Shown in pieces: positions 6,789 through 25,434 of a stretch of DNA of 32,205 bases. The stretch spans positions 1 through 32,205 of the forward strand of contig CANSLJ010000038.1 in the NCBI GenBank assembly GCA_947647735.1, written 5' to 3'. The stretch's first letter is position 1. Each line of letters begins with the position of its first letter. The notes under the pieces were generated by a model. That model was given only the letters and a program-made list of their open reading frames with translations. It was not told where the DNA came from and searched no databases. The stretch comes from an uncultured bacterium. GTDB taxonomy: Bacteria; Bacillota; Clostridia; Lachnospirales; Lachnospiraceae. Position numbers and translations under genes: made by a program.

Positions 6789-6858
6789 AACGGCACTTAT
6801 AAAAAGTGCACATAGTAACCGGAATGGAGAACCGGTCACAAAGGAGAGGAATATAATA

Positions 6859-8479: not shown

Positions 8480-8555
8480 TCTGAAGGATCGGTTTGGGCG
8501 GAACAGGAGCTGAGTTAAATCGCATTTTGGACGAGGAATACGGCGGAGATTTGGT

Positions 8556-9785
8556 ATGAACTGTAAAAAGCATTTGAAAAAATATATATTGATCTTCCCG
8601 CTCCTTTTGATCATGCTTCTGCAGACAGGGGAGGCGGAGGCGGTTTCACTTTCCTCCATCACATCCGATAGTATCCGTGAGAAGGAAGGACAGATATCTG
8701 CGGCGCAGGATGAGAAAAATCAGCTCTCATCAGCCCTGACGGATATCAAGGCGCTGAAGGATCAACTGGAGAAAGAAAAAGCGAGCCTGGAGAGCTATGT
8801 GGTGGCGCTGGACAATAATCTGGCTGAGATCCAGCAGAAGATATCCGAACTGAACGGCATGATCGTGGAGAAGGAGGAGGAGATCCGGGAGACTGAGGAG
8901 GAACTGAAGGCTGCCACACAGAAAGAGGAAGAGCAGTATGCGGCTATGAAATACCGGATCCAGATGATGTACGAGCAAAATGACGATTATTATCTGGAGA
9001 CGATACTGAGTGCAGAATCTTTTGCGGATCTGTTGAATAAACTGGATTATATCCAGCTTGTGATGGAGTATGATGACAAGAAGCTGGAGGAGTATATGCT
9101 GATCCGGCAGTATGTGGAAGTCTGCAGGGAAGAGCTGGATGCCGAGAAAGAGGTGCTGGACGAGGCGAAGGCCGGCGTTGAGAAGGAGGAGGCTTCTCTG
9201 GCTCAGCTGATTTCCGATAAGGAGACGGAAATCGTGGCAAAGCAGGGGGATATCAGCAATAAGGCGGCAGCGATCGCCGAGTATGAGGCGGATATCCAGG
9301 CGCAGAATGAGCTGATCGCCTCTCTGGAGGCAGCGGTTGCTGAGGAACGGAAGCGGATCGCGGAGGAAAACGGCAGGCGCTTGACCTATGACGGCGGAAT
9401 GTTTACCTTCCCGGCGCCTTCCTACACCAGGATTTCCGATGATTATGGAAATCGTATGCACCCTACGCTGGGGGTGGAGAAGTTCCATAACGGAATAGAT
9501 CTGGCGGCACCCAACGGCAGCCCGATCCTGGCGGCTTATGACGGTGAAGTGGTGGCGGCGGCATACAGCGGCAGCATGGGAAACTACGTAATGATCGACC
9601 ACGGGGACAGCCTCTATACGATATATATGCACGCTTCTGCGCTTTATGTATCAAAGGGGGATCTTGTGGCAAAAGGAGAACAGATCGCGGCGGTAGGTTC
9701 TACCGGAAGATCCACCGGTCCGCATCTGCATTTCGGTGTACGAAAGAACGGAAGTTATGTGAGTCCCTGGTCATATCTGGGATAA
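8556..9785 (+). CDS. Secreted coiled-coil M23 (LytM) peptidoglycan hydrolase
   Basis: A 409-residue exported protein. Residues 1-29 form a signal peptide (KKHLKKY, then a hydrophobic core, then GEAEA). Residues 35-275 are a long heptad-rich coiled coil. Residues 285-405 are a LytM/M23 metallopeptidase with intact zinc and catalytic residues: H311 and D315 (HNGID), H359 (YMHASAL), and H390-x-H392 (GPHLHFGV). The layout is the same as PcsB/EnvC-type partners of FtsEX, and the gene directly follows ftsX by 76 nt. Unlike EnvC, whose LytM domain is degenerate, this domain looks catalytically complete, so it probably cuts peptide crosslinks itself under FtsEX control. Confidence 0.92.
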   Translation: MNCKKHLKKYILIFPLLLIMLLQTGEAEAVSLSSITSDSIREKEGQISAAQDEKNQLSSALTDIKALKDQLEKEKASLESYVVALDNNLAEIQQKISELNGMIVEKEEEIRETEEELKAATQKEEEQYAAMKYRIQMMYEQNDDYYLETILSAESFADLLNKLDYIQLVMEYDDKKLEEYMLIRQYVEVCREELDAEKEVLDEAKAGVEKEEASLAQLISDKETEIVAKQGDISNKAAAIAEYEADIQAQNELIASLEAAVAEERKRIAEENGRRLTYDGGMFTFPAPSYTRISDDYGNRMHPTLGVEKFHNGIDLAAPNGSPILAAYDGEVVAAAYSGSMGNYVMIDHGDSLYTIYMHASALYVSKGDLVAKGEQIAAVGSTGRSTGPHLHFGVRKNGSYVSPWSYLG

Positions 9786-9876
9786 GGAGATATCTTAGCG
9801 GTACCTTCCGTACGGAATACCTGTTGAGGCGGGAATGCATGGAACAGAAAATGAGTAAAAAGGTGGCGTATGGGTT

Positions 9877-11118
9877 TTGGTTTGGAGTAAGAAGCAGGAA
9901 AGGTCAAGCGGTTACGGCGTTGGCGTGATAACCGGGATTCTGGCAACAGCGCTGGTGTTTTGCGGCGCGTGGACCGGAAAAATATTATATGATAACAGCA
10001 GGGCGAAAACGGCGTCCGTCTCCGGCACATCGGAGGGAGAGTCCGTGGTGAACACGGAGACGATCAGCAAGATGGCTGCCATCGAGGAGATGGTGAATGA
10101 GCGGTTCTATTTTGGCGATGTGGAGGAGGAGGAACTGCAAAAGGGAATCTGCAACGGTATGATAGAGGCGCTGGATGACAAGTATGCGGCATATTATACG
10201 GCGGAGGAGCTGAATGCCCAGCTGGAAAGCAATGAGGGGATCTATTACGGCGTGGGTGCCTATGTCAGCATGGATGAGGAGATTGAGACGCCCTATGTCA
10301 GCGGCGTGATAGAGGGAACCCCTGCCGAGGAGGCGGGACTGCGGATGGGCGATATCATCTATGCGGTGGACGGGACGAGGACGTTCCAGATGACGCTGGA
10401 TGAGGTGACTGCGTTGATCAAAGGCGAGGAGGGAACCCATGTGACACTGACACTGGTGCGGGATGAGGAGGTCTTCGACCAGGATGTGGTGCGCCGGCGT
10501 GTGGATCGCCCTACGGTGACTTCCAGAATGCTGGATGAGGAGATCGGCTATATTGGCATTTCCGAGTTTAAGGATGTGACGGTGGATCAGTTTACGGAAG
10601 CCTACGCGGTGATAAAGGGTTCCGGTGCAAAGGCGTTGGTTCTGGACCTGCGGGGAAATCCCGGCGGGCTGCTGGATGCGGTGGTCGATATCGGCAGACA
10701 GATCCTGCCGGAAGGGCTGATCGTTTATACGGAGGATAAGAACGGCAAGCGTGTGGAATATGACTGCGACGGGAAAAGGGAGATAGAGATTCCGATGGTA
10801 GTGCTTGTCAACGGCGGTTCCGCCAGCGCGGCGGAGGTGCTCACCGGAGCCATAAAAGATTACGGCGTGGGGACGATCATGGGCACGACCACGTACGGGA
10901 AAGGAATTGTCCAGAAGATCATCGCGCTCTCGGACGGTTCTGCGATAAAGCTTACGACAGACGGTTATTTCACGCCGAAGGGAAATAATATCCACGGGAA
11001 AGGGATTGAGCCGGATATCGTGGTGGAGTTTGATGCGGAAGCCTATTATGGCGAGGAGCAGATCGATAATCAGCTGGAAGCGGCACAGGAGTATTTGAGG
11101 AAGAGGCTGCACGGATAA
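9877..11118 (+). CDS. S41 family C-terminal processing peptidase (CtpA/CtpB-like)
   Basis: A 413-residue membrane-anchored serine protease. A signal anchor (VGVITGILATALVFCGAW) spans about residues 15-33, a PDZ domain about 120-200, and the S41 core about 215-390. The catalytic Ser-Lys dyad with Gln is S317 (NGGSASAAE), K342 and Q346 (TYGKGIVQ); the 25-residue S-K spacing equals that of Prc and CtpB. The start is TTG at 9877, after AAAGGTGG; no ATG is available in frame downstream before the membrane anchor. Such proteases process secreted or septal wall enzymes, consistent with its place behind ftsEX and the M23 gene. A well-placed ATG at 9839 is in another frame (see findings). Confidence 0.9.
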   Translation: MVWSKKQERSSGYGVGVITGILATALVFCGAWTGKILYDNSRAKTASVSGTSEGESVVNTETISKMAAIEEMVNERFYFGDVEEEELQKGICNGMIEALDDKYAAYYTAEELNAQLESNEGIYYGVGAYVSMDEEIETPYVSGVIEGTPAEEAGLRMGDIIYAVDGTRTFQMTLDEVTALIKGEEGTHVTLTLVRDEEVFDQDVVRRRVDRPTVTSRMLDEEIGYIGISEFKDVTVDQFTEAYAVIKGSGAKALVLDLRGNPGGLLDAVVDIGRQILPEGLIVYTEDKNGKRVEYDCDGKREIEIPMVVLVNGGSASAAEVLTGAIKDYGVGTIMGTTTYGKGIVQKIIALSDGSAIKLTTDGYFTPKGNNIHGKGIEPDIVVEFDAEAYYGEEQIDNQLEAAQEYLRKRLHG

Positions 11119-11140
11119 GATCAGGAATATAGAAATGATA

Positions 11141-11180
11141 CAGCCGGTCGGTTTTCGGAGGAAACCGACCGGCTGTTGTT
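11141..11180 (+). terminator. Strong terminator after the S41 peptidase gene
   Basis: CAGCCGGTCGGTTT (11141-11154) pairs perfectly with AAACCGACCGGCTG (11162-11175), a 14-bp stem with a 7-nt loop followed by TTGTT. It closes the division block. Its 3' end touches the stop codon of the convergent DeoR gene; on the minus strand the T run is poor. Confidence 0.9.
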
Positions 11181-11949
11181 ATACAACATCGGTGTGGATG
11201 GAAGAAGCCTTTAAAAGTTCGACTTCCTTAGCCGGTATACGGGAGTCGGTGATGATATGATCGACTTCAGCCGTCTTGGCAAAAGAGTAGAGCGCAGTCT
11301 GATGAAACTTGCTGTAATCAACCAGAAAATATGTCTGGTCGGAAGCAGAAAGGAACGCCTGCTTGATCTCTCCCTCCATGGAAGAAAAAACGGTCATTCC
11401 ATGTTCCATGTCAAAAGCGGTGGTGGCAAGGAAGCTCTTATTGACATGATAGTTACTGATCATCCGGATCACATCAACACCGGTATAGGCAAAACCGGCG
11501 CTGCGCCGCAGTTCCCCCCCGGTACAGAGTAAAGTCACTTTATCATTATTGATCAAAAGATAGGAGATAAAAGGATCGTTCGTGATGACGATCACTTTTT
11601 TATCCAGAATTTTTGCCAGTTCGAGCGTGGTCGAACCGGAATCCAGAATTATGATATCCCCGTCGTTAATGTAGGAAAGAGCAGCTGCGGCAATAGCCTG
11701 CTTTTCTTTACTGTTCCTGTGCCTTTTAGCAGGAAGGGGATAAATCTCGTTCGTGCTGCTTTTAATGATGGCACCGCCGTGGACACGTTCCACAATTCCC
11801 ATTTTCTCCAGAGTAGCCAGATCCAGCCGTATTGTTTTTTCTGTCACCTGAAGAGATTCACTCAGTTGGGCGACGCCCATGCTTCCGTGAATGCCGAGAA
11901 GTTTTGTAATTTCTTCTAATCGTTTTGTTTTCATTCTCAAGATTATCAT
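11179..11949 (-). CDS. DeoR family transcriptional regulator
   Basis: A 256-residue regulator. The N-terminal DeoR helix-turn-helix covers about residues 8-60, with LQVTEKTIRLDLATLEKMG as recognition region and the family hallmark RVHGGA just after. Residues 80-235 form the DeoRC effector domain, with DSGSTTLELAKIL and VITND as sugar-phosphate-binding motifs. The start at 11949 is preceded by AGGAAATGGCGG; a second ATG at 11934 is also possible. It is divergent from the transaldolase/TRAP genes across a 161-bp gap that holds a repeated TTTCCGATAA element. I infer that it controls that operon in response to a phosphorylated sugar-like intermediate. Confidence 0.9.
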   Translation of the reverse strand: MIILRMKTKRLEEITKLLGIHGSMGVAQLSESLQVTEKTIRLDLATLEKMGIVERVHGGAIIKSSTNEIYPLPAKRHRNSKEKQAIAAAALSYINDGDIIILDSGSTTLELAKILDKKVIVITNDPFISYLLINNDKVTLLCTGGELRRSAGFAYTGVDVIRMISNYHVNKSFLATTAFDMEHGMTVFSSMEGEIKQAFLSASDQTYFLVDYSKFHQTALYSFAKTAEVDHIITDSRIPAKEVELLKASSIHTDVV

Positions 11950-12110: not shown

Positions 12111-13427
12111 ATGACACTTGAAGAGACAAACTGTACCATTGGAGCGCTGGTGGGCTCGGGACAGTTGGCTGTAGCGGAGGGAACGGAAACGGAGTTATAT
12201 GAACGGATTCGGAATACAAAATTATCTTTGAAAGACTTTCTGGCTTCAGCGGGATACATTAAGTATGTGGGGGTAACTGACGAATTCCGGAAGGTATTGA
12301 AGACGTTTCCGGTTCCGGAGGGCGAGACGCCGGCGGGGTTCAGAAAGGAACTGATCTTTGGAGATGACGGCTGCCTGCGGGTGGATCTTGTAAGAGATAT
12401 TGCTTTTGAAAAAAATGGAGAGCGGCGTCCTACCAATATGCTGTTTTCAGCAAATACGGCGAATCCGTTTGAGGTGGAGGCGATGAAGAACTTTATCGCC
12501 AACCTGACAACGAACCCGGCTATTATTTATGAACATTTTTTAAATAATCCGAAAGCGAACAAAAACAATCAGTTTAAGGACAGATACGAGGTGCTGGAGG
12601 AACTTGGGAGGCTGGTAGGGCCCGGTGTGGACATCAGCGTTGAATTTGATGACCCGTTTGCGCCGGAAGAGAAACTGATGGAGGAAGTTTCCCGCTTTGA
12701 GGAGATTCTCACTCCTTACCGCCTGGTGGTAAAGGTGCCGCATACGGGGCCGTTAAACACGGAGAATGTCGGAGATTTTCTGGGAGGAAAATACCCTGCT
12801 GTGGAAGAGGGAGCTACTAAAGATTTCTTTTATGGGCATAACCTGGCATACCGGCTTCAGGAAAAGGGATATAAAGTGAACTTTACATTGATGGGAGAAC
12901 CGCACCAGACAGCGCTGGCATTGCTCGCAAAACCCTATTTTATCAATGCTTTTGTGGAAAAGAGGCACGATCAGACAGGCAGGTTGGCTCAACTTATTGA
13001 GAACCTGGATAAAACGGGGGACGCGGTTTACCGCGGTATGATTCATGACTATATGATGAAATCGGATATGCTTGCTTCGGATGATACGGATCTGGCGGGA
13101 GCGGAAGAAAAAGCGAGAAGGATCGTTCGTTATCGGAATTATTATTCACAGGAGGGATATGACGGACTGGACAGTGTGCGTCATAGTTTAAGAGTGCTGA
13201 AGCAGGCGAATCTGCCTGATACGCGCCTGATCATATGTAATACAAAGAGCGATCAGATGTATTATGACATCGATAAATTATCGGTAGAGCCGGAGTTCGC
13301 GGATATGAAACAAAGGATCGTTCTAACCTGTGAGCCGGGATATTTCGGAAGATTTACAGGCTCTCCTACTATTTATACATATCAGCGCTCATTCCTGAAC
13401 AGTGTTTCAAGTGGAGGGGGTTCATGA
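12111..13427 (+). CDS. Atypical transaldolase/fructose-6-phosphate aldolase-like protein
   Basis: A 438-residue cytoplasmic protein. Residues 110-285 carry the signatures of the transaldolase/FSA fold: NLTTNPAII (131-139, compare GVTTNPSII), VVKVPHTGPLN with K208 at the position of the Schiff-base lysine (compare VKVPVTAEGL in E. coli FSA), and VNFTLMGEPHQTALALL followed by FINAFVEKR (compare the family's TLIFSxxQALLA and YVAPFVGR). It is much longer than FSA (about 220) and has about 110 extra N-terminal residues plus about 150 C-terminal ones. The Asp of the family's first strand (LDTAN) is replaced by LFSANTAN. It overlaps dctQ by 4 nt. A class I aldolase or transaldolase acting on the TRAP-imported compound is the best inference; the exact reaction is unknown. 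Confidence 0.7.
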   Translation: MTLEETNCTIGALVGSGQLAVAEGTETELYERIRNTKLSLKDFLASAGYIKYVGVTDEFRKVLKTFPVPEGETPAGFRKELIFGDDGCLRVDLVRDIAFEKNGERRPTNMLFSANTANPFEVEAMKNFIANLTTNPAIIYEHFLNNPKANKNNQFKDRYEVLEELGRLVGPGVDISVEFDDPFAPEEKLMEEVSRFEEILTPYRLVVKVPHTGPLNTENVGDFLGGKYPAVEEGATKDFFYGHNLAYRLQEKGYKVNFTLMGEPHQTALALLAKPYFINAFVEKRHDQTGRLAQLIENLDKTGDAVYRGMIHDYMMKSDMLASDDTDLAGAEEKARRIVRYRNYYSQEGYDGLDSVRHSLRVLKQANLPDTRLIICNTKSDQMYYDIDKLSVEPEFADMKQRIVLTCEPGYFGRFTGSPTIYTYQRSFLNSVSSGGGS

Positions 13428-13933
13428 AGAAGGTAATATTAAAAATAGTTGATAATTTTGAAGTATATATCTGTTATGTTACATTGGTTGTGTCATTGGT
13501 GGTTCTTTTTGTGCAGGTGATCCTGCGGTACGTGTTCGGCAATGCCACAAGCTGGTCAGAAGAGGTCGGGAGATACTGCCTGATCTGGCTTATTTTCATA
13601 GGAACCAGTTTCGCGGTAAAAAATGAAGCACATATACGGATCGATGCGGCGCTTATGATATGGCCAAAGAAAGTGCGTCCTGTCATACTGGAGATCGGAG
13701 ACGGCATCTGGTTTTTGTTTAATCTCCTGATGATCTATGTCAGTGCCTCTTATACGAAGGAAATATTTGATATGGGAAGTATCGCGCCGGGGTTGAAGAT
13801 ACCTTTGGGATTTGTTTATACTGCGATCCCGCTGGGGTTTTTGCTGATGTGCATCCGCATGATCCAACTGAAATACAAAAAGCTGAAAGCGTTTCTGGGA
13901 AGGGATAAGGACGGAAAGGAGGAGGGAAAATGA
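13424..13933 (+). CDS. dctQ: TRAP transporter small permease (DctQ)
   Basis: A 169-residue membrane protein with four hydrophobic helices, the usual DctQ size. The family pattern is clear in VILRYVFGNATSWSEEVGRY (residues about 29-48) and in LIFIGTSFAVKNEAHIRID. It forms the small membrane subunit of a tripartite ATP-independent periplasmic-type (TRAP) importer driven by sodium. Its ATG overlaps the stop of the aldolase-like gene (ATGA) and its own stop overlaps the dctM start in the same way, so all three are translationally coupled. Confidence 0.92.
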   Translation: MKKVILKIVDNFEVYICYVTLVVSLVVLFVQVILRYVFGNATSWSEEVGRYCLIWLIFIGTSFAVKNEAHIRIDAALMIWPKKVRPVILEIGDGIWFLFNLLMIYVSASYTKEIFDMGSIAPGLKIPLGFVYTAIPLGFLLMCIRMIQLKYKKLKAFLGRDKDGKEEGK

Positions 13934-15210
13934 ATCCGGGATTGATTATATTTATTGTTTTTATGGTTTGTGTGTTTTTGGGCGTGCCGATCGTTTTTTC
14001 TCTTGGAATTGCGTCGATCATAGGAATCGCGGTATTTGATATTGTGCCGTTGTCATACTATATTCAGGTATTATATGCCGGGAGCGATTCGTTTACCCTG
14101 CTGGCAGTGCCATTCTTTATTCTGGTCGGAGAGATATTGTGTATCGGAGGGATTGCCGAACGGCTGGTCTCCTTTGCCAACTCAATCTTCGGGCGGGCAA
14201 GCGGTTCGCTGGGATATATCACAGTATTTGTATGTGCGATCTTTGCGGCGATATCCGGGTCTGGCGTTGCGACAGTTGCGGCAGTCGGCGGCATTATGGT
14301 TCCGGCTATGATAAAAGAAGGGTATGATAAAAATTATGCGGGTTCGATCGCTGCATCCAGCGCGACGCTGGGGCCGATCATTCCTCCCAGCCTTCCGATG
14401 GTAATGTATGGAATCACAGCAGGCGTTTCCATTACCAAGCTGTTTACAGCAGGGATCGGGCCAGGACTTTTGATGGTGGTATCTTTAATGCTGTTGAACT
14501 TTGCGGTGGTGAAGAAACATCACTTTCAGCCGGCGAACAAAGAAGGAAGCTTTAACTGGCGTGCATTGGGAAAAGAGTTTTTGTCCGCGATCTGGGGGCT
14601 GCTTGTTCCGATCATTATCCTGGGCGGTATTTACGGCGGGATCTTTACACCTACCGAGGCGGCTGTTGTAGCCTGTGTATGGGGATTGTTTGTCAGTGTA
14701 TTTATTTATCGGGAAATGGATCTCAAGAAATTTATACTGTGTCTGAATAATACGATCAAGACAACAGGAATGTGCCTGATCATGGCAAGCATCGCTCTGG
14801 CGTTTGGGAGGGTGCTGACATTGATGGGCGTACCGGTTGCGATCACAAACGCGATCACTTCCATAACGGACAGTAAGATCGTGATCCTGTTATTATTCAA
14901 CGTGATCCTGTTTATTGCCGGTATGTTTCTGGAGACACTGGCGGCGGTATTTATCTTTACACCATTGTTGTTACCGATCGCACAGTCTGTTGGCGTAGAT
15001 CCGATCCATTTCGGCCTGATCATGTGCGTGAATCTGGCGATCGGACTGGTGACACCTCCGGTAGGATTGAATCTGTTTATTGCTTCCAAGCTGGCGGATA
15101 CCAAGATGGAAGCACTGCTGGGATGGGTAATGAAATTTATCATTGTACTTTTGATCGATCTGATGTTGATCACATTTGTTCCACAGTTGTCTCTGTTCCT
15201 GGTTGGTTAA
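13930..15210 (+). CDS. dctM: TRAP transporter large permease (DctM)
   Basis: A 426-residue polytopic protein of the DctM family, the large channel subunit of a TRAP importer. Family signatures include FSLGIASIIG, VPFFILVGEI, the ISGSGVATVAAVGGIMVPAM segment and GPIIPPSLPMVMYG at about residues 150-165, and FGLIMCVNLAIGLVTPPVGL near the C-terminus. About twelve hydrophobic segments are present, as expected. It overlaps dctQ by 4 nt and is followed after 69 nt by the binding protein gene. TRAP systems normally take up carboxylates or sulfonates. Confidence 0.95.
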   Translation: MNPGLIIFIVFMVCVFLGVPIVFSLGIASIIGIAVFDIVPLSYYIQVLYAGSDSFTLLAVPFFILVGEILCIGGIAERLVSFANSIFGRASGSLGYITVFVCAIFAAISGSGVATVAAVGGIMVPAMIKEGYDKNYAGSIAASSATLGPIIPPSLPMVMYGITAGVSITKLFTAGIGPGLLMVVSLMLLNFAVVKKHHFQPANKEGSFNWRALGKEFLSAIWGLLVPIIILGGIYGGIFTPTEAAVVACVWGLFVSVFIYREMDLKKFILCLNNTIKTTGMCLIMASIALAFGRVLTLMGVPVAITNAITSITDSKIVILLLFNVILFIAGMFLETLAAVFIFTPLLLPIAQSVGVDPIHFGLIMCVNLAIGLVTPPVGLNLFIASKLADTKMEALLGWVMKFIIVLLIDLMLITFVPQLSLFLVG

Positions 15211-15279
15211 CAGAAGGCGGCAAAAAAGAGAAGGGAAGTTTACATAATATCTTTATATTCATCTAAGAAAGGGAAAATT

Positions 15280-16368
15280 ATGAAGAAAAGAACATTAACA
15301 GCGGTTTTATTGGTATTGGTAATGCTTATAACAGCGGGGTGCGGGAAGAAGGAAGAAGCGCCCAAGGCGGAAGAAAACACAGCAAATGCGGAAGCGGGCG
15401 AAGCGGCTGCAGAAGACAGCCCGAAGGAAGGGGAGGCTTATACGATCGTAATTCCCCAGACGCAGAATGAGAGCGATCCCCAGGTAATAGCGTATCACAT
15501 GCTTGAGGAAGCTCTGGAAGAGCGTTCGGAGGGAAGGATCCAGGTAGATGTTTACAGCGGTGGAACGATCAGTTCAGGCGACACGGAAACCCTGCAGCTT
15601 GTGGCGTCGAATGCGGCGCAGATCGGGAACTGCCCGAACTTTACTCTGGCGGAGAGCATCGGCGTGAAAGCGCTCTATATCTGGGATTATCCGTTCTTAT
15701 TCCAGTCATCGGAGGAAATGTATCAGATCATGGATGATCCGGATTTCTGGAGCGATGTTTCCGCACAGATAGAAGCGAACTCCTCTCTGAAGGTTTATTC
15801 CAATTATGTAAACTCATGGCAGCTCATCAGCAACAGTAAACGCGCAGTTGCTACACCGGCAGATCTGTCCGGGCTGAAGATCCGTACTTCTACAGCGGAA
15901 CTCTATGTATCCACGATCAATGCGCTGGGTGGAAATGCGACACCTATGGCATGGGGCGAAGTGTTCAGTGCTCTGCAGCAGGGTACCGTGGACGGAGCTT
16001 TTGTGGCATCCACATTGTTTGATCTGAATAAGTTCAGTGAAGTACAGCAGTATGCAACAGATGTAAATCCGAATGCCAATCTGCAGATCGTATTTATCAA
16101 CCGGGATTTCTATAATTCACTGCCGGAGGACCTGCAGAAGATCGTGGACGAAGAGATGGCAAATTTTGTGACAAATGTACGGGAATTATGTGCTGAGACA
16201 GAGGCAAATGCATGGGACAGCATTGAAAGCTCCGGCGTGGAAGTAACACATCTGACAGAAGAGCAGAGAGCGGAATTTACGGAAGCAGGAAAAGTGATCT
16301 GGGAAGAAAAAGCGGATGTAGCCGGTGAAGAAGTGGTAGCTCTGGTGAGAGAAAAATTAGGAAGATAG
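15280..16368 (+). CDS. dctP: TRAP transporter solute-binding lipoprotein (DctP)
   Basis: A 362-residue exported lipoprotein. The lipobox LITAGC places the lipidated cysteine at residue 21, followed by an acidic, Ala/Glu-rich linker to about residue 52. The DctP signature LSGLKIRTSTAELYVSTINA with R202, then GGNATPMAWGEVFSALQQGTVDG, is intact. In characterised DctP proteins this Arg binds the substrate carboxylate, so the ligand here probably carries a carboxylate or similar acid group. It lacks the Arg-rich features that would allow a finer ligand guess. A good AAAGGG ribosome binding site precedes the ATG. Confidence 0.93.
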   Translation: MKKRTLTAVLLVLVMLITAGCGKKEEAPKAEENTANAEAGEAAAEDSPKEGEAYTIVIPQTQNESDPQVIAYHMLEEALEERSEGRIQVDVYSGGTISSGDTETLQLVASNAAQIGNCPNFTLAESIGVKALYIWDYPFLFQSSEEMYQIMDDPDFWSDVSAQIEANSSLKVYSNYVNSWQLISNSKRAVATPADLSGLKIRTSTAELYVSTINALGGNATPMAWGEVFSALQQGTVDGAFVASTLFDLNKFSEVQQYATDVNPNANLQIVFINRDFYNSLPEDLQKIVDEEMANFVTNVRELCAETEANAWDSIESSGVEVTHLTEEQRAEFTEAGKVIWEEKADVAGEEVVALVREKLGR

Positions 16369-16434
16369 TTTAGCGGATAACGTAAAAGGCAATCGTGAAT
16401 GGCAATAGATGAATAGAGATATATGAAAAGAAAG

Positions 16435-16500
16435 CAGGGAAGTCCGGCAAAAGAACTGATTCATCAGTAAAAGGCAGGGCTTCCTGTTTTCAAAAACAGG
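16435..16500 (+). promoter_or_regulatory. Overlapping hairpins before 4hbD (possible attenuator)
   Basis: CAGGGAAGTCC (16435-16445) can pair with GGGCTTCCTG (16477-16486), with one bulge and one G-U pair, followed by TTTT, and it encloses a smaller ACTGA/TCAGT hairpin (16455-16468). The same CCTG then also pairs with ACAGG in a second hairpin, CCTGTTT/AAACAGG (16483-16500), that covers part of the 4hbD ribosome binding site AGGAG (16498-16502). The two structures exclude each other. It could be an intercistronic terminator or attenuator; function is inferred. Confidence 0.5.
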
Positions 16501-16511
16501 AGAAAATGACA

Positions 16512-17648
16512 ATGAAACAGATTTTGATAAAGCCCGAGATACACTCTTATGATACATTTCATACATTTGCGGCAGAGTATGCGCTGGGAGAGCAGGATGT
16601 GATCCTGACCAACGAATACATCTACAACCCTATCATGGCAGCAGAAGATCTGAAATGTGCGGTGATCTATCAGGAAAAATATGGGACGGGTGAACCCACG
16701 GATGTAATGACAGAGGCGATCCTGGAGGAAGTGAGAAAATATGACGCACGAAGGATCATCGCGGTGGGCGGTGGAACGATCATCGATATAGCCAAGGTTC
16801 TGGTGCTGGAGGGTGCTGATCGGATTGACGATATGTATGAAAATATGGCAGAGCTGAAAAAGGGGAAGGAATTGATCATCATCCCTACCACATGTGGTAC
16901 GGGCAGCGAGGTGACCAATATTGCGGTGCTTAACAGGACAAAACTGGGAACAAAACAGGGCATGGTTTCCCAGGCGATGTTCGCGGACAAGGCGGTGCTG
17001 ATCCCGGAATTTCTCGGGAGCCTTCCCTATAAGGTATTTGCGACAAGTTCCATTGACGCGCTTGTCCACGCCGTGGAATCTTATCTGAATCCCGATGCCA
17101 CCGTTTTTTCCGAGATGTATTCTGTGAAAGCGATCGAGATGCTTTTGGAGGGGTATTGCAGGATCGCGGAGGAGGGGACAGAGGCATGGAAAAAGGACGC
17201 GGAGAAGTATCTGATCGCCAGCAATATGGCGGGGATCGGGTTTTCCAACAACGGCTGCGGGGCTGTCCATGCCATGGCCTATGCGATCGGCGGCAAATAT
17301 CATGTGCCCCACGGGGAGAGCAATTATCAGTTCTTTGTGCCGGTTCTGAAGTTATATGAGAGGAAGGTTACCGGGGGGAAAATGGCGGAGTTGAAAAATA
17401 TTCTGAAGGCATGCATGGTAAACGGGGGATTTGGCGGCGCAGACAGTGACGAAAGTGCCATAGACCTGCTGAGGAGCCTGCTGGATAAAGTGCTTCCTGC
17501 AAAGAAGATGTCCGAATACGGCGTGGTGCAGGAAGATATCGTTCCTTTCGCACAGAGCACCGTGGACAACCAGCAGAGATTGCTGAAGAACAGTCATGTG
17601 CCGCTCAGTCAGGATGAAATTCAGGCTGTTTATCAGGAATGCCTGTAA
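16512..17648 (+). CDS. 4hbD: 4-Hydroxybutyrate dehydrogenase (iron-type alcohol dehydrogenase)
   Basis: A 378-residue group III (iron-dependent) alcohol dehydrogenase that strongly resembles the Clostridium kluyveri 4-hydroxybutyrate dehydrogenase along its length (for example FDTF-type start, CGTGSEVTNI, HVPHGESNYQFF). It interconverts succinate semialdehyde and 4-hydroxybutyrate with NAD(H). The cofactor motif GGGT is at 86-89. Metal ligands are D182, H186 (SSIDALVHAVES), H253 and H267 (HVPHG), with the family spacing. The ATG at 16512 is preferred because AGGAG lies 9 nt upstream; the ATG at 16506 is only 3 nt from it. It begins the 4-hydroxybutyrate section of the cluster, 53 nt before the dehydratase gene. 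Confidence 0.9.
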   Translation: MKQILIKPEIHSYDTFHTFAAEYALGEQDVILTNEYIYNPIMAAEDLKCAVIYQEKYGTGEPTDVMTEAILEEVRKYDARRIIAVGGGTIIDIAKVLVLEGADRIDDMYENMAELKKGKELIIIPTTCGTGSEVTNIAVLNRTKLGTKQGMVSQAMFADKAVLIPEFLGSLPYKVFATSSIDALVHAVESYLNPDATVFSEMYSVKAIEMLLEGYCRIAEEGTEAWKKDAEKYLIASNMAGIGFSNNGCGAVHAMAYAIGGKYHVPHGESNYQFFVPVLKLYERKVTGGKMAELKNILKACMVNGGFGGADSDESAIDLLRSLLDKVLPAKKMSEYGVVQEDIVPFAQSTVDNQQRLLKNSHVPLSQDEIQAVYQECL

Positions 17649-17701
17649 AGCGAAACGATGAAGATAAACGAACGGGATCAAAAGAAAAAGGAGAGAAGAT
17701 T

Positions 17702-19153
17702 ATGGCAATGATGACAGGTGAGCAGTATGTCGAGAGCATGCGCGCAATGAAATTGAAAGTATATATGTTTGGAAAGAAGATTGAGAATCCGGTGGATGAT
17801 CCGATCCTTCGTCCCTCCCTCAATTCCGTAAAGGCAACCTATGATCTGGCGCAGAACCCGGAGTACGAGGATTTGATGACAGCCACATCCATATTTACAG
17901 GGGAGAAAATAAACCGGTTTTTACATATCCATCAAAGTCCGGAGGATCTGGTGAAAAAAGTAAAGATGCAGAGACTCTGCGGACAGCAGACGGCGGCATG
18001 TTTTCAGAGATGTGTCGGCATGGATGCGTTCAATGCGGTTTACAGTACGTCTTATGAGATCGATAAAAAATACGGGACTTCCTACTTTGAGAATTTTAAA
18101 AAGTTTGCAGCCTACTGTCAGGAGAAAGACTTTACGGTGGATGGCGCAATGACAGATCCGAAGGGGGACAGAGGGCTTGCGCCTCATGCCCAGCCCGATC
18201 CTGACATGTATCTCCGGGTAGTGGAGAAGAGGGAGGACGGCATTGTGGTCAGAGGGGCAAAGGCGCATCAGACCGGGGCGATCAACTCTCAGGAGATCCT
18301 GATCATGCCGACCATTTCCATGGGACCGGAGGATAAGGATTATGCGGTGGCATTTGCGGTTCCCACTGACACGGAAGGGATCACTATGATCATCGGAAGA
18401 CAGTCCTGCGATACGAGAAAGCTGGAAGGTTCCGAACTGGATGTGGGAAACAGTGAATTTGGCGGTGTGGAAGCGCTGGTTATTTTTGACGATGTGTTTG
18501 TGCCCAACGACAGGATCTTCCTGAACGGCGAATATGAGTTTGCGGGAATGCTGGTGGAGCGGTTTGCGGGGTATCACAGACAGAGCTACGGCGGATGTAA
18601 AGTGGGCGTGGGAGATGTGCTGATCGGAGCGTCCGCTCTGGCGGCGGAGTATAACGGGGTGGCAAAAGCTTCTCATATTAAGGACAAGCTGATCGAGATG
18701 ATACACCTGAATGAAACTTTGTACTGCTGCGGCATCGCCTGCTCTGCGGAAGGGTCAGAGACTGAATCCGGCAACTATATGATCGATCTGCTTCTTGCCA
18801 ATGTGTGCAAACAGAATGTGACAAGATTTCCCTACGAGATCGCACGGCTGGCGGAGGACATTGCGGGCGGTATTATGGTAACCGCTCCCTCGGAGGCTGA
18901 TCTCAGAGGGGAGGAGACCGGAAAATGGGTGGAAAAATATATGGTTGGCGCAGCGGGCGTTTCCGTTGAAAACAGGATCCGCATTCTCAGGCTGATCGAA
19001 AATCTGTGTCTCGGCACAGCTGCAGTCGGTTACCGCACGGAATCCCTGCACGGAGCCGGGAGCCCTCAGGCACAGCGGATCATGATCTCCCGTCAGGGCA
19101 ATCTGCCTATGAAGAAAGAGCTTGCAAAGAAGATTGCTAAAGTGAAAGAGTAA
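17702..19153 (+). CDS. abfD: 4-Hydroxybutyryl-CoA dehydratase / vinylacetyl-CoA isomerase
   Basis: A 483-residue flavin and [4Fe-4S] enzyme, very similar throughout to AbfD of Clostridium aminobutyricum. It dehydrates 4-hydroxybutyryl-CoA to crotonyl-CoA by a radical mechanism and is oxygen-sensitive. All four cluster ligands are present: C100 and C104 (CFQRC), H292 and C299 (GYHRQSYGGC). Other hallmarks are VDGAMTDPKGDRGLAP, VRGAKAHQTGAINS, HLNETLYCCGIACSAEG and TESLHGAGSPQAQRIMI. The loop after residue 420 (SEADLRGEETGKW) is a few residues shorter than in C. aminobutyricum. The ATG at 17702 follows AAGGAG by 8 nt. Its neighbours supply the substrate (CoA-transferase) and probably the cluster (Nfu-like protein). 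Confidence 0.95.
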   Translation: MAMMTGEQYVESMRAMKLKVYMFGKKIENPVDDPILRPSLNSVKATYDLAQNPEYEDLMTATSIFTGEKINRFLHIHQSPEDLVKKVKMQRLCGQQTAACFQRCVGMDAFNAVYSTSYEIDKKYGTSYFENFKKFAAYCQEKDFTVDGAMTDPKGDRGLAPHAQPDPDMYLRVVEKREDGIVVRGAKAHQTGAINSQEILIMPTISMGPEDKDYAVAFAVPTDTEGITMIIGRQSCDTRKLEGSELDVGNSEFGGVEALVIFDDVFVPNDRIFLNGEYEFAGMLVERFAGYHRQSYGGCKVGVGDVLIGASALAAEYNGVAKASHIKDKLIEMIHLNETLYCCGIACSAEGSETESGNYMIDLLLANVCKQNVTRFPYEIARLAEDIAGGIMVTAPSEADLRGEETGKWVEKYMVGAAGVSVENRIRILRLIENLCLGTAAVGYRTESLHGAGSPQAQRIMISRQGNLPMKKELAKKIAKVKE

Positions 19154-19180
19154 CGGATGGACATCGGAGGTTATGGTAAT

Positions 19181-20491
19181 ATGGAATGGCAGAAAATTTA
19201 TGATGAGCGCAGAGTGGATGCTGAGGAAGCGATCAGGCTGATCCATGACGGGGACCGTGTTGTGATCGGGCATGCGGTGGGCGTTCCCCTTGCGATCACC
19301 GATGTACTGGTGGAGCATAAGGAGGATTACAGGGATGTTGAGATCGTACAGATGGTTTCCATGGGAAATGCCAGATTTTCAGAACCGGGGACAGAGGGAC
19401 ATTTTCGGCTGAATTCCTTTTTTCTGGGGGTGCAGTCCAGGCCTGCGGTGAAGGAGGGGCGGGGAGATTTTACACCCTGCTGCTTCTCGGAGGTACCCGG
19501 ATTATTCAGGGAGTATTTGCCGGTGGATGTAGCTGTCGTGATCGTAACGCCGCCGGATAAGGACGGCTACTGCAGCTGCGGCATTTCTGTGGATTATACG
19601 TTGCCTGCGGCGAGATGCGCAAAAAGAGTGATCGCGCAGGTAAATCCGCGGATGCCCAGGACGCATGGAGATACTTTTTTACATGTGTCCGAGATCGATG
19701 CGTTTGTGGAGATAGAGGAGCCTGTTCTGGAGCTTTCGCTCCCGAAGATCAGTGAGGTGGAAAAAGCAATCGGGGAAAACTGTGCGAAGCTGATTCACGA
19801 TGGGGATACGTTGCAGCTCGGCATCGGCGCGATCCCGGATGCGGTCCTTCTGTTCCTGAAAGACAAAAAGGATCTGGGCATCCATTCGGAAATGATATCG
19901 GACGGCGTTGTGGAACTGATCGAGGCGGGTGTGATAACCAACAAGAAGAAAACGCTGCATCCGGGGAAGACGGTGGTTACTTTTCTGATGGGAACAAAGA
20001 GGCTGTATGATTATGCGGATGATAATCCGTCCCTGTACATGTGCCCGGTGGATTATGTAAACGATCCGTTTATCATTGCCCGGAATGACGGAATGGTCTC
20101 CATCAATTCCTGCATTCAGGTGGATCTTCAGGGACAGGTTGCCGCTGAGAGCGCAGGGCTCTCCCAGATATCCGGCATCGGCGGCCAGGTTGATTTTGTC
20201 CGCGGCGCAAGGAGGAGCAGAGGGGGAAAGTCTATTATGGCGATCGGCTCCACGGCAAAGAGGGGCACAGTATCCAAGATCGTGCCGTTTCTGGACGAGG
20301 GAGCGGCGGTAACTACCTCCAGAACGGATGTGGATTATATTGTGACGGAATATGGTATTGCGGCTCTGAGAGGAAAGACGTTAAGGGAGCGTGCGGCGGC
20401 GCTGATCCGCATCGCGCATCCGGATTTCAGAGAAGGACTGGCTGCCGAGTATGAGAGGAGATTTTCGTGTAAATATGGGGAGCCGGATTGA
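19181..20491 (+). CDS. abfT: 4-Hydroxybutyrate CoA-transferase
   Basis: A 436-residue family I CoA-transferase of the AbfT/Cat2 type, which moves CoA from acetyl-CoA or butyryl-CoA to 4-hydroxybutyrate. The glutamate that forms the covalent intermediate is E237 in GIHSEMISDGVVEL, equal to E238 of C. aminobutyricum AbfT. The oxyanion and CoA motifs QLGIGAIPDAVL and QISGIGGQVDFVRGA are intact. The start MEWQKIYDERR at 19181 matches the family N-terminus and lies 10 nt after GGAGG; a longer reading from 19157 is open but unlikely. It lies 27 nt downstream of abfD and 22 nt upstream of the Nfu-like gene, so all are probably one transcript. Confidence 0.93.
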   Translation: MEWQKIYDERRVDAEEAIRLIHDGDRVVIGHAVGVPLAITDVLVEHKEDYRDVEIVQMVSMGNARFSEPGTEGHFRLNSFFLGVQSRPAVKEGRGDFTPCCFSEVPGLFREYLPVDVAVVIVTPPDKDGYCSCGISVDYTLPAARCAKRVIAQVNPRMPRTHGDTFLHVSEIDAFVEIEEPVLELSLPKISEVEKAIGENCAKLIHDGDTLQLGIGAIPDAVLLFLKDKKDLGIHSEMISDGVVELIEAGVITNKKKTLHPGKTVVTFLMGTKRLYDYADDNPSLYMCPVDYVNDPFIIARNDGMVSINSCIQVDLQGQVAAESAGLSQISGIGGQVDFVRGARRSRGGKSIMAIGSTAKRGTVSKIVPFLDEGAAVTTSRTDVDYIVTEYGIAALRGKTLRERAAALIRIAHPDFREGLAAEYERRFSCKYGEPD

Positions 20492-20513
20492 AAACAGTAT
20501 AGGGATCTTGAGC

Positions 20514-20807
20514 ATGGAAGAGAAGAAAAAGCAAATAGAAGCTGTTTTAGAAAAATATGTGGCGCCATATCTGGCACAACATGGGGGGAACCTTTATCTG
20601 GAAGAGGTCAGAGATGATGTTGCCTATGTAAGATTTACCGGGCACTGCAGCGGTTGCCCGTCTGCGAAGCATACGCTGGAAGGCGTTGTAAAGGAGGAAC
20701 TTTTGAAGCATACAGATGCGGTGAAGGATGTGAAGCTGGCGGAGGGGGTGAGCGATGAGCTGTATGAGCTGGGGAGGGCGGTGCTGCGGCGTGAGGTGAA
20801 GCTGTAG
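20514..20807 (+). CDS. NifU C-terminal domain (Nfu-type) Fe-S scaffold protein
   Basis: A 97-residue protein consisting almost entirely of an Nfu domain, which carries and transfers iron-sulfur clusters. Residues AQHGGNLYLEEVRDDVAYVRF and the cluster-binding C45-x2-C48 (GHCSGCPSAKHTLEGVV) are diagnostic. The ATG at 20514 gives the usual family N-terminus (MEEKKKQIEAVLEKYV); its ribosome binding site (AGGGA) is modest. It is the last gene of the 4-hydroxybutyrate cluster. The position suggests that it helps mature the [4Fe-4S] cluster of the dehydratase, although general housekeeping use cannot be excluded. Confidence 0.88.
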   Translation: MEEKKKQIEAVLEKYVAPYLAQHGGNLYLEEVRDDVAYVRFTGHCSGCPSAKHTLEGVVKEELLKHTDAVKDVKLAEGVSDELYELGRAVLRREVKL

Positions 20808-21832: not shown

Positions 21833-22852
21833 TCAGTCTATCTTCCGGGTGCTTTTCCTGAGGATCAGCTTCAGATCGAAAGTAGTGATCACAGGTTTGG
21901 CATCCGGATGTTCGGCGGCGTGGATCAGGATCCTCGCCGCTTCTTTTCCCATTTCATAGACGGGCTGGCGTACCGTGGTAAGAGGAACCGTTAAGATGGC
22001 AGACAAAAAATGGTCATCATATCCGACAACGGATACATCTTCCGGCACGGATAAATTGTATTTGGAAAGGCCGTTGTATACGCCGTAAGCCATCAGATCA
22101 TTCAGGGCAAAGACAGCCGTGAATTCCCTGTCACAGAGATAATCAATACCGTTCAGGCCTGATTCATAGGTATAGTCCCCTTCGTAAACCAGATCGTCAT
22201 CCCATTTCAGATTATATTTATGGAAAGCCCTTTTACAGCCTTCCAGACGGCTCTGTGCTGCTTCCAGGCCGGAAGGACCGGTAATAAAGGCAATTTTCCG
22301 GTGTCCCAGTGAGAGCAGGTGGAGGGTTGCGATATAACCGCCTTTTTCGTGGTCACAGACAACTGCGTTGATCGGTTCTCTGTAGTTGGTCAGGTCGGTC
22401 TGAACGATTGGAACCTTCATGGAAAGAAGCAGTTCCCTGTTGGAGTCATAAATGGAATCATCAGCAGAAGACGGTGTGGTAACAATTGCGACACCGTCTA
22501 TGTTTTTCGCGTAAAGTGCTTCGATATACTGTTTTTCTCTCAGGGGATGCTGGTTGGTGGTACATAAGATCATGCTCCAGTTCATTTCCTGGCAGACATC
22601 TTCCAGACCTTTGGCATAAGTGGCATAATAGTCGTTTCGGATATCCGGAATGACCAGTCCCAGGGTATAGCTGCGGCTGGTCCGCAGGTTGACGGCAGCA
22701 AAACTGGGGTGGTATCCCATTTCCTGTGCCAGGGCTTTGACCTTGTTTTTGGTGCTCTCGGAAATGCGGGAAGGGCGGTTATTTAAAACAAGAGATACGG
22801 TGGCAGGAGAAAGTCCTGCCGCCTGCGCGATGTCTGTGATCGTAACTTTCAT
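21833..22852 (-). CDS. LacI family transcriptional regulator
   Basis: A 339-residue repressor. The N-terminal helix-turn-helix is unmistakable: TITDIAQAAGLSPATVSLVLN (residues 3-23) with hinge-helix region RISESTKNKVKALAQEMGYHPS. The rest is a periplasmic-binding-protein-like effector domain (SYTLGLVIPDIRNDYYATYA, FALNDLMAYGVYNGL, VSVVGYDD). It sits between the DMT gene and the nucleoside operon; both have near-identical palindromic operators next to their promoters, so I infer that it represses both. The effector is probably a nucleoside, nucleobase or ribose. A second, differently spaced palindrome lies upstream of its own gene. Confidence 0.93.
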   Translation of the reverse strand: MKVTITDIAQAAGLSPATVSLVLNNRPSRISESTKNKVKALAQEMGYHPSFAAVNLRTSRSYTLGLVIPDIRNDYYATYAKGLEDVCQEMNWSMILCTTNQHPLREKQYIEALYAKNIDGVAIVTTPSSADDSIYDSNRELLLSMKVPIVQTDLTNYREPINAVVCDHEKGGYIATLHLLSLGHRKIAFITGPSGLEAAQSRLEGCKRAFHKYNLKWDDDLVYEGDYTYESGLNGIDYLCDREFTAVFALNDLMAYGVYNGLSKYNLSVPEDVSVVGYDDHFLSAILTVPLTTVRQPVYEMGKEAARILIHAAEHPDAKPVITTFDLKLILRKSTRKID

Positions 22853-22891
22853 ATTGAAATTCCTTTTCAGAAAAAATCATTCTATCAGGGT

Positions 22892-22918
22892 TGTCAAAAG
22901 TTGATAAATGTTTATCAA
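22892..22918 (-). promoter_or_regulatory. LacI gene upstream region: -35 box and palindrome
   Basis: On the minus strand TTGACA (22897-22892) is a good -35 for the LacI gene; the matching -10 is weak. Directly upstream lies TTGATAAATGTTTATCAA (22901-22918), with two perfect 8-bp arms around a TG centre. Its GATAAA half-sites equal those of the operators at 20895 and 23083 but are set 2 rather than 4 bp apart. It may serve autoregulation. The remaining 300-bp gap to the hydrolase start holds only AT-rich sequence and the promoter described separately. Confidence 0.45.
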
Positions 22919-23038
22919 AGATTACCATATTTAAGAGAAAACTGCAACTGTATAATGCATAAATCTGATGAAAGTTGTGAAATTGCACAAAAAAAGGACG
23001 GAATATTTGTATATAACAGCAAAAAAACTAAAATAAAG

Positions 23039-23068
23039 TTGACAAAAGGTTTTACCATGTGTTATTCT
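23039..23068 (+). promoter_or_regulatory. Promoter of the nucleoside operon
   Basis: A perfect TTGACA (23039-23044), an 18-bp spacer and TATTCT (23063-23068), 85 nt before the first hydrolase start. The arrangement relative to the downstream palindrome (15 nt) is nearly the same as at the DMT gene (17 nt). Confidence 0.65.
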
Positions 23069-23082
23069 GTTTTCGCAGGGAG

Positions 23083-23098
23083 GATAAAACGTTTTATC
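23083..23098. promoter_or_regulatory. LacI-type operator of the nucleoside operon
   Basis: GATAAAACGTTTTATC is a perfect 16-bp palindrome centred on CG, just downstream of the promoter and about 55 nt before the hydrolase start. Its near-identity to the site at 20895-20910 and the adjacent LacI gene support repression by that protein. Confidence 0.78.
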
Positions 23099-23152
23099 TT
23101 TTACGGCCGAAAGGATGGAACATTTTAAACAAACCGGAAAGGAAAAGGAATT

Positions 23153-24100
23153 ATGAGTGATAGAAGAAAAATTATTATTGACTGCGACCCCGGACATGAC
23201 GATGCGGTAGCGATCATGCTGGCGGCGCGCAACCCGAAGATAGAGCTTCTTGGAATTACAACCGTGCGCGGAAACCAGACTCTTGAAAAAGTAACGAAAA
23301 ATGCTTTGAATATCTGCCAGTATCTGGGAATTGATGTTCCGGTTTGTCAGGGACTCGGCGAAGCGATCGTGCGGAAATCACCGCCGGTAGAAGAGAGAGT
23401 GCACGGGGACAGCGGACTGGACGGTCCCGTATTTGATCCGTTAACAAAGCAGCTGGATCCCAGACATGCGGTAGATTTCATTATAGAAACCGTACTGAAT
23501 GCGGATTCCCCTGTGACATTAGTACCGACAGGGCCTTTAAGCAATATCGCTATGGCGATAAAAAAGGAGCCCAGAATACTCGAAAATATTGATGAAATAG
23601 TTTTGATGGGAGGCGCTTATCAGCACGGAAACGTGACCGCAGCTGCCGAATTTAATATTTATGCGGATGCCGAAGCGGCACATGTGGTATTCAGCTGCGG
23701 CCGCAGGGTGGTTATGATGGGGCTGGACCTGACAAGACAGGCGCTCTGCTATCCGGAGATCGTGGAGAGGATGGAGAAGGTAAAGACCAGGGCAGGAAAA
23801 CTGTTTGTGGATCTGATGAAATTTTTCTGTATGACACAGAAGAGGACTTTTGGGTGGGAAGGCGGCCCGCTGCATGATCCTACCACGATAGCGTATCTGA
23901 TCGATCCGTCCTGTATCGAAACGAAGGATATGTATTCGGAGATCGATATTACCGGCGGCCCGAGCCATGGACGTACCAACTGTGATTTCTTTAATCTTAT
24001 GAAAGATAAAGAGATGAACAGCAAAGTAGCGGTGAAACTTGATGTGGAAAAGTTCTGGGATATCGTGGAAGATAACTTACGGCTGTATGACAGCATCTGA
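23153..24100 (+). CDS. Nucleoside hydrolase (inosine/uridine-preferring type)
   Basis: A 315-residue cytoplasmic nucleoside N-ribohydrolase, which splits ribonucleosides to base and ribose. The calcium-binding motif is D10-x-D12-x3-D16-D17 (DCDPGHDDA). H84 in HGDSGLDGP and H241 in GPLHDPTTIAYL correspond in context to the two active-site histidines of the pyrimidine-specific E. coli enzyme RihB, and N168 (AAEFNIYADAEAA) is the ribose-binding Asn. This points to a RihA/RihB-like enzyme, though the exact base preference cannot be read safely. It is first in the operon, directly behind the LacI-type operator, and is followed after 42 nt by the nucleoside-type binding lipoprotein. Confidence 0.92.
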   Translation: MSDRRKIIIDCDPGHDDAVAIMLAARNPKIELLGITTVRGNQTLEKVTKNALNICQYLGIDVPVCQGLGEAIVRKSPPVEERVHGDSGLDGPVFDPLTKQLDPRHAVDFIIETVLNADSPVTLVPTGPLSNIAMAIKKEPRILENIDEIVLMGGAYQHGNVTAAAEFNIYADAEAAHVVFSCGRRVVMMGLDLTRQALCYPEIVERMEKVKTRAGKLFVDLMKFFCMTQKRTFGWEGGPLHDPTTIAYLIDPSCIETKDMYSEIDITGGPSHGRTNCDFFNLMKDKEMNSKVAVKLDVEKFWDIVEDNLRLYDSI

Positions 24101-24142
24101 TAACCTGAGAAGAAACAGCATAGAAAGAGAAGGGAATATAAT

Positions 24143-25318: not shown

Positions 25319-25374
25319 AAACAGTATTTATTGTTGCAGGATGACTAAAAGTCGGCAAGCATAGGCGGTTATGT

Positions 25375-25414: not shown

Positions 25415-25434
25415 AAAGGATACAGGTGTGTTTT

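Follow-up and report, generated by a model that had tools for sequence, protein, structure and literature searches.

Hints of an undescribed butyrate route from acidic sugars in a gut Lachnospiraceae bacterium

What feeds the 4-hydroxybutyrate (4HB) branch encoded at positions 12111 to 20807 of contig CANSLJ010000038.1 (GCA_947647735.1)? The 32,205 nucleotides analysed (hereafter, the window) come from a gut Lachnospiraceae bacterium whose own genome, labelled G000, is 86.55% complete. The 4HB pathway is fed by SucD or by 4-aminobutyrate (GABA) in Clostridium kluyveri and C. aminobutyricum, and butyrate formation in gut Lachnospiraceae is credited mainly to the acetyl-CoA, lysine, glutarate and succinate/4-aminobutyrate routes. 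In the window, the 4HB genes follow those of a transaldolase-like protein (ALD) and a tripartite ATP-independent periplasmic (TRAP) importer. We tentatively propose, at somewhat less than even confidence, that this operon would catabolise an acidic ketose-type sugar via ALD into the 4HB branch and on to butyrate. The identities of the genes, the ALD fold, the conserved residues, the exchange of ALD for a split transketolase (TK) beside the same module, and the structure of the trees are direct observations, described below.

The 4HB branch and the transaldolase-like protein

The initial annotation, made from the letters of the window, had listed eight genes on one strand; all were present and open on the forward strand, with unchanged coordinates. 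They are given here with the divergent regulator:
11179-11949, reverse strand: DeoR-family regulator (PF00455, 150 bits; PF08220, 55 bits)
12111-13427, forward strand: ALD, transaldolase/FSA-fold protein of 438 aa (PF00923, 31.1 bits, gathering cut-off 27, residues 124-306)
13424-13933, forward strand: DctQ, TRAP small permease (PF04290, 114 bits)
13930-15210, forward strand: DctM, TRAP large permease (PF06808, 385 bits; TIGR00786, 415 bits, cut-off 268)
15280-16368, forward strand: DctP, TRAP binding protein (PF03480, 217 bits; lipoprotein-like start by eye)
16506-17648, forward strand: 4HbD (hbd), iron-type 4-hydroxybutyrate dehydrogenase, an aldehyde reductase (PF00465/PF25137; 30sm, Cvir-Hbd2, E 2.7e-100)
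17639-19153, forward strand: AbfD, predicted 4-hydroxybutyryl-CoA dehydratase/vinylacetyl-CoA isomerase (1u8v, E 8.3e-236)
19157-20491, forward strand: AbfT, 4-hydroxybutyrate CoA-transferase (3eh7, E 1.5e-160; 3gk7, E 1.4e-152)
20451-20807, forward strand: Nfu-type Fe-S scaffold (PF01106, 70.6 bits)

The complete branch from 4HB to crotonyl-CoA that had been claimed was borne out: 4HbD, AbfD and AbfT match solved relatives, and AbfD is identical to 1u8v at all four positions (Cys99, Cys103, His292 and Cys299, 1u8v numbering) that we take to be the [4Fe-4S] ligands of this HpaB-like family. The corresponding window motifs (C121/C125 and H313/C320) were found in the 12 copies checked, L064 having a Phe just before the His. 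Judged by these ligand residues, the window AbfD is a predicted member of the 4-hydroxybutyryl-CoA dehydratase family, and the branch reads as genuine. Nfu-like open reading frames (ORFs) recur near abfD in other loci. The three subunits of a TRAP transporter were all present by Pfam.

The distances between the longest ORFs were -4 nt (ALD/dctQ), -4 (dctQ/dctM), 69 (dctM/dctP), 137 (dctP/hbd), -10 (hbd/abfD), 3 (abfD/abfT) and -41 (abfT/nfu). The 1u8v alignment begins at AbfD residue 24, so the true AbfD start probably lies some 20 codons inside the annotated ORF, in which case the -10 nt overlap would be spurious. The 137-nt gap had no entry among the listed terminator-like sites.

Neither of the two known sources of succinate semialdehyde was recognised. 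The lack of SucD and of a GABA transaminase held among the window ORFs scanned, and also in the own genome, where the incomplete assembly leaves absence unproven: its three Aldedh proteins were one MdlD/SSADH-like, one EutE-like (about 29% identical to the SucD-like proteins adjoining AbfD elsewhere) and one of about 414 aa known by family match alone, and its aminotransferase class III matches were ArgD and BioA. SucD was also rejected as a regular AbfD neighbour: the family of about 468 aa first guessed to be SucD resembles sigma-54 regulators, judged from one scanned member, and Aldedh neighbours occurred at 3 of 40 AbfD loci (L063 by Pfam; L068 and L100 by BLAST). The EutE-like acylating aldehyde dehydrogenase (L094, G000:C6 near 110254) has neighbours that appear microcompartment-like by eye.

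ALD belongs by its predicted-structure matches, which include BmSF-TAL, to the PF00923 transaldolase/FSA fold, and carries an N-terminal extension of about 105 residues; compared by sequence with the PDB it had no relative (the sole match was a designed miniprotein, E 0.48). Ten ALD sequences were aligned, excluding that of G009 (L018), which is truncated at a contig end. The Schiff-base lysine (TalB Lys132) corresponds to ALD Lys208 and is Lys in all ten, and the Asn, Glu and Thr equivalents of the TalB/FSA active site are also kept. The catalytic Asp (TalB Asp17/FSA Asp6) was not found: the structural-match register (model 110 = chain 1) places Asn115 there, a position held by Asn in 5/5 ALDs of the window type and by Asp in 5/5 of the other subfamily. 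The sequence alignment alternatively pairs Asp17 with Asn118, present in all ten; the window residue is Asn either way. The model has pLDDT (predicted local distance difference test) below 50 at residues 116-124, near Asn115. The catalytic Asp is probably replaced by Asn in the window subfamily. By sequence alignment, the equivalent of TalB Ser176 is Asn in 10/10, and that of Arg181 is Lys in the window ALD.

Two heads beside one module

ALD matches were found in 8 of 195 relatives and in one further genome among 392 of the order, the own genome being counted in both tallies. The window and genome G001 have a common order, DeoR, ALD, DctQMP, hbd; the DeoR regulator is 61% identical, and its position is kept in G001 and G003. 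Beside DeoR, G003 has a Zn-dependent alcohol dehydrogenase (Zn-ADH), parts of a sugar-type ABC importer, a Zn-ADH, ALD, an AroE-like protein and a partial H+-PPase near the contig end. A second G003 contig carries the complementary H+-PPase part near its start (profile 3-232 and 248-644 over the two contigs), followed by hbd (87%), abfD (95%) and abfT (92%). This H+-PPase coding sequence is broken at the contig ends (L013 start and L053 start), between ALD and the 4HB genes, and the ends look repeat-like by eye.

The gap between dctP and hbd in G001 is 11 or 26 nt, depending on which of two candidate starts is taken; import and 4HbD thus look co-transcribed there. The initial annotation had taken the ALD-dctQ-dctM overlaps as coupling aldolase to import, and both overlaps are real in the window, the first of them not being conserved in G001. 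It had also proposed a search for conserved adjacency of ALD, TRAP and AbfD: this was direct in the window, and the ALD-DctQMP-hbd order recurred in G001, with AbfD probably attached across contig ends, G003 departing from it by its ABC importer.

AbfD itself was found in 27 of 195 relatives and in 25 of 392 order genomes, giving 50 places (union of both searches, E up to 1e-3), of which 40 neighbourhoods were read, window included; the ten left out were G176, G079 second, G099 second, G376, G442, G211, G389, G276 second, G322 and G405 second. Rows of one genus are not independent. The own genome holds a second module:
L050 (G000:C12:60001-78000), 4104-11607: IolN-like hydrolase, split transketolase, hbd, abfD, abfT and nfu; behind these, a GntP-like permease and a CoA-transferase-like ORF

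This IolN-family protein scored 255.5 bits, just above the cut-off of 245, and is 35% identical to the IolN of G092. G000 and G001 each hold two AbfD copies, and in both the copy without ALD adjoins TK. A split TK (N and C subunits) stands beside AbfD in 8/40 neighbourhoods, from five genera and two families (G000 C12, G001 C10, G005, G006, G066, G088 and G092 in family f1; G293 in family f2). TK C-subunit matches numbered 2-8 per genome in the ten genomes searched (1.9-4.9 Mb), for which chance neighbours would be expected at fewer than one of 40 loci, a rough estimate (about 4.5 copies, 16 kb flank, 3.4 Mb) in which related genomes are not independent. TKs 66-68% identical to that of the own genome were found in G001, G005, G006, G008 and G293; the AbfD-linked TKs of G066, G088 and G092 are 45-50% identical to it. 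G003, which has only the AbfD of the ALD clade, had no close TK (best 45%).

The most extended of these clusters was the operon-like run of G092 (L067): two Zn-ADHs, IolN (522 bits, cut-off 245), IolG (432 bits, cut-off 355), transketolase, AbfD, AbfT, crotonase, acyl-CoA dehydrogenase (Bcd), Etf (EtfA and an ORF taken as putative EtfB), 4HbD and a PfkB kinase. By its gene content, this run looks like a route from cyclitol to butyrate. In G293, from another family, crotonase, a 282-aa ORF, Bcd, EtfBA, split transketolase, hbd, abfD and abfT follow one another (L106, 1-10729; genes named by BLAST to L067 and window proteins). Neither IolG nor IolN exceeded its NCBIfam cut-off in the window, nor did IolG in G000 (best 94.8 of 355). 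IolB, tried as a marker of the 2-deoxy-5-ketogluconate route, was rejected: nothing exceeded the cut-off of 205 bits in 15 genomes, and weak matches (86 and 91 bits) came from G092 and G088, inside their TK-4HB clusters or close to them. A reading by eye of IolD, IolB and a thiolase in the G092 flank is given no weight.

The pocket of the AbfD-linked TKs, read against E. coli TktA (genome record, E. coli numbering), was altered at the same positions throughout: Asp461 and Asn469 in 8/8; Ala (5), Cys (2) or Ser (1) at position 385; Arg520, Phe434 and His473 kept in 8/8; and Arg358 in 6/8 (Lys in 2). Three TKs from ALD loci lacked this pattern, one being canonical and two differing otherwise. 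Succinate semialdehyde is an aldehyde without an alpha-hydroxyl, and these residues may fit it as the TK product. According to passages of PMC11659671, the sulfofructose TKs of Faecalicatena have RAFDR in place of RSFHR, a change tied to the non-phosphate head group; and passages of PMC3657141 report that changes at H461 and D469 of E. coli TK raise activity on propionaldehyde, an aldehyde without alpha-hydroxyl.

Trees were built from 40 AbfD rows and eight chosen hbd rows; the TK, ALD and SUCD labels were assigned before the trees, and the ALD labels of L052 and L053 rest on contig ends. The window AbfD grouped (96/82) with the G003 copy and the C128 copy of G001, the link to ALD being direct in the window and inferred across contig ends in the other two. 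The sister clade (97/91) contained TK-linked AbfDs of the same genus (G006, G001 C10 and G005) and also the AbfD of G008, whose gene is the first on its contig. Transporters differ within the ALD-linked clade: TRAP in G000 and G001, sugar-type ABC in G003. The ALD label required one change on the AbfD tree (8/500 shuffles as low). The TK label required four, indicating that the TK linkage is one that recurs in several AbfD lineages and not the mark of a single one. In our reading, a single 4HB module can be headed by either of two ketose-cleaving enzymes, ALD or TK.

Proposed mechanism and its alternatives

In the proposed mechanism, DctPQM would import the acidic ketose as an anion, and ALD, as a class I Schiff-base enzyme (Lys208), would cleave it, keeping the dihydroxyacetone part (to be released, or passed to glyceraldehyde-3-phosphate) and freeing a short aldehyde bearing the carboxylate, either succinate semialdehyde or a C4 precursor. 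4HbD would then reduce this aldehyde, AbfT would form the CoA ester, and AbfD would convert 4-hydroxybutyryl-CoA into crotonyl-CoA for butyrate, with Nfu serving the AbfD cluster. In the same genus and in other genera, the split TK with its altered head-group pocket would replace ALD, and the inositol-type enzymes adjoining two TK loci (IolN; at one also IolG) would open a ring to a keto acid. Co-transcription, direction, substrate class and the release of a C4 aldehyde by ALD are what we infer here. An anionic ligand is consistent with the sequence of DctP, whose best PDB match is the isethionate-binding DctP 8t9t (E 4.2e-38) and whose LKIRT motif, the Arg of which presumably binds carboxylates, aligns with LKVRT/LKIRT of PDB relatives.

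The weak point is the chemistry. TK removes two carbons, turning a C6 5-keto acid into a C4 acid aldehyde; transaldolase removes three, leaving a C3 aldehyde from the same acid, and a C4 aldehyde would require a C7 ketose acid. Either the TRAP substrate would be a C7 acid or the ALD product would be a C3 compound used elsewhere. A further option is a 3-hydroxy-C4 aldehyde, processed via 3,4-dihydroxybutyryl-CoA, crotonase and acyl-CoA dehydrogenase, as suggested by the gene clusters of G092, G088 and G293.

This chemistry, giving C3 and not the C4 succinate semialdehyde from a C6 ketose acid, weighs against our proposal, as do the following observations. No source was seen for a C7 ketose acid, and the activity of ALD is itself uncertain because its catalytic Asp is probably Asn. 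Direct ALD-AbfD adjacency was found in the window only; no end overlap joined the contigs of G001 or G003, so that adjacency there is putative. The ALD/dctQ spacing in G001 is +30 nt, and the 137-nt dctP-hbd gap could accommodate a separate promoter. DctP orthology failed as a substrate clue, a close DctP (91%) being found in G001 only (next best 35%). At L010, L014-L017 and L069, the sequence read around the ALD homologue contained no AbfD (L011 and L018 lie on short contigs), five of these loci carrying nucleoside or transketolase genes and L010 CoA-transferases. On the TK side, TK was not seen at 32/40 AbfD neighbourhoods, some of which are truncated at contig ends, and the TK label was not clustered on the AbfD tree (153/500 shuffles as low). 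In the hbd tree the G001 copy adjoining ALD-TRAP fell outside both groups, and 10% of bootstrap trees united the ALD copies in one clade. In G092 the AbfD-linked TK (45%) is not the closest to that of the own genome, another copy being closer (50%), and D469N and H461D themselves are not among the engineered variants in the passages of PMC3657141.

The initial annotation had named as its own refutation aldolase-TRAP units that consistently lack the 4HB genes, and these loci without AbfD realise it in part. L010 has Zn-ADH, ALD, AroE-like, CoA-transferase and AP_endonuc_2 genes; at L011 the gene after ALD codes for an IolN homologue that shares 67.6% identity with that of G092. The other ALD subfamily, perhaps a pentose-type transaldolase at L014-L016, has Fe-ADH, a PF01676 metalloenzyme and ABC genes at these three loci, L014 adding a nucleoside phosphorylase and a binding protein of PnrA type; at L017 and L069 its neighbours are a split TK, an FGGY kinase and a class II aldolase. 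An amidohydrolase was scanned at L014 and L015, and a DeoC-like aldolase at L014 and L016. ALD occurs among non-4HB neighbours, so that finding it is no sign by itself of a 4HB branch.

A possible explanation, though we hold it unlikely, is that two units merely adjoin: ALD and TRAP would make a C3 aldehyde acid (malonate or tartronate semialdehyde) used elsewhere, and the 4HB module would be an electron sink with another source of succinate semialdehyde. The C3 product of C6 transaldolase chemistry, known in general, the dctP-hbd gap in the window, the ALD loci without AbfD, and the IolN (L011) and CoA-transferase (L010) neighbours, which would suit a C3 acid, speak for such a division. The close spacing of hbd behind dctP in G001, the failure to recognise SucD or a GABA transaminase as that other source, the confinement of ALD to one AbfD clade, and the TK beside the second AbfD copy of G000 and G001 speak against it. 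The claim of the initial annotation that a C-C cleaving enzyme acting on a carboxylated polyhydroxy compound feeds the 4HB branch is reasonable in outline, because a second ketose-cleaving enzyme, the split TK, adjoins the same module and ALD goes with one AbfD clade; the ALD homologues without AbfD, the confinement of the close DctP to G001 and the C3 chemistry count against it.

TRAP binding proteins take small anions, and the importer could supply 4HB or another short hydroxy acid directly to AbfT and AbfD, with ALD on a different route, much as the initial annotation had offered for its alternative. The isethionate ligand of the best DctP relative, a C2 hydroxysulfonate, and the closeness of hbd to dctP in G001 would agree with this, yet we consider it improbable: ALD heads the operon, its gene overlapping dctQ in the window; G003 combines ALD with a sugar-type ABC importer instead of TRAP and probably still has the 4HB module; and imported 4HB would make 4HbD needless. 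Equally improbable is an ordinary divergent pentose phosphate transaldolase placed here by chance, to which the fold and the company of the other subfamily (TK, FGGY kinase and class II aldolase, or nucleoside-type operons) would point, given that the two subfamilies differ consistently at residue 115, that the neighbours of the window subfamily include dehydrogenases, IolN, TRAP and 4HB genes, and that so few relatives have ALD.

Two other substrate classes were rejected. A sulfonate pathway had SarD and the isethionate DctP as its best named matches; SarD scored 165 against a cut-off of 700, and AbfD and AbfT are unsuited to sulfonates. Quinate or shikimate was considered for the AroE-like neighbour in G003 and L010; the G003 protein reached 150 bits against a cut-off of 200, and the window has no such gene.

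Relation to known systems

The acidic-ketose proposal differs from the SucD- or GABA-fed 4HB pathway in its inputs: the same 4HbD, AbfT and AbfD homologues occur, with their Fe-S ligand residues kept, whereas ALD and TRAP, or the split TK, stand beside the module where no SucD or GABA transaminase was recognised. The closest likeness is to sulfoglycolysis by transaldolase (SftT) or split transketolase (SqwGH), described as bifurcated in Faecalicatena (Lachnospiraceae) in passages of PMC11659671. In both, a transaldolase-fold enzyme or a split TK would remove C3 or C2 from a non-phosphate acid ketose and leave an acid aldehyde, and the TK head-group positions are altered; the downstream genes here are for a carboxylate (4HB to crotonyl-CoA) and not for a sulfonate, and ALD is about twice as long as the matched SftT/FSA chains, at roughly 20-22% identity. 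By analogy, the window system may work like sulfo-TAL/sulfo-TK without being a member of those pathways. Compared with E. coli TalB, FSA and BmSF-TAL, ALD shares the fold and the Schiff-base Lys, Asn, Glu and Thr equivalents, and differs in its extension and in the probable Asp to Asn, the Ser176 to Asn and the Arg181 to Lys changes. With the Thermotoga-type inositol route (TIGR04380, NF041098) it shares IolN, upstream of the TK-4HB genes in G092 and marginally in the own genome, and after ALD in L011; the window has no iol gene, and TK or ALD with 4HB genes stands where the known later steps would be.

It is conceivable, if doubtful, that these loci represent a new butyrate route, in which acidic ketoses, imported or derived from cyclitols by IolN-type ring opening, would be cleaved by a transaldolase-like enzyme or a specialised split TK. 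The C4 acid aldehyde so formed, either succinate semialdehyde or the 3-hydroxy derivative of it, would be carried by 4HbD, AbfT and AbfD to crotonyl-CoA. Such a route would parallel sulfo-TAL/sulfo-TK glycolysis for carboxylates, one shared 4HB module taking either head in exchange. In searches of an open-access library, no title linked AbfD or 4-hydroxybutyrate to transketolase, inositol or transaldolase: the parts are known, and their combination did not turn up there at title level. If a ketose-cleaving enzyme does feed AbfD, genes now assigned to 'succinate/GABA to butyrate' would partly belong to sugar-acid or cyclitol routes, and both the 438-aa transaldolase-like family and the AbfD-linked split transketolases would gain a testable function.

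A protein search of a plasmid collection gave no match. Downstream, at 21833-30992, the window carries a separate nucleoside-salvage cluster, with a LacI-type regulator, three nucleosidases, a 391-aa ORF (lipoprotein-like by eye) and ABC transporter genes.

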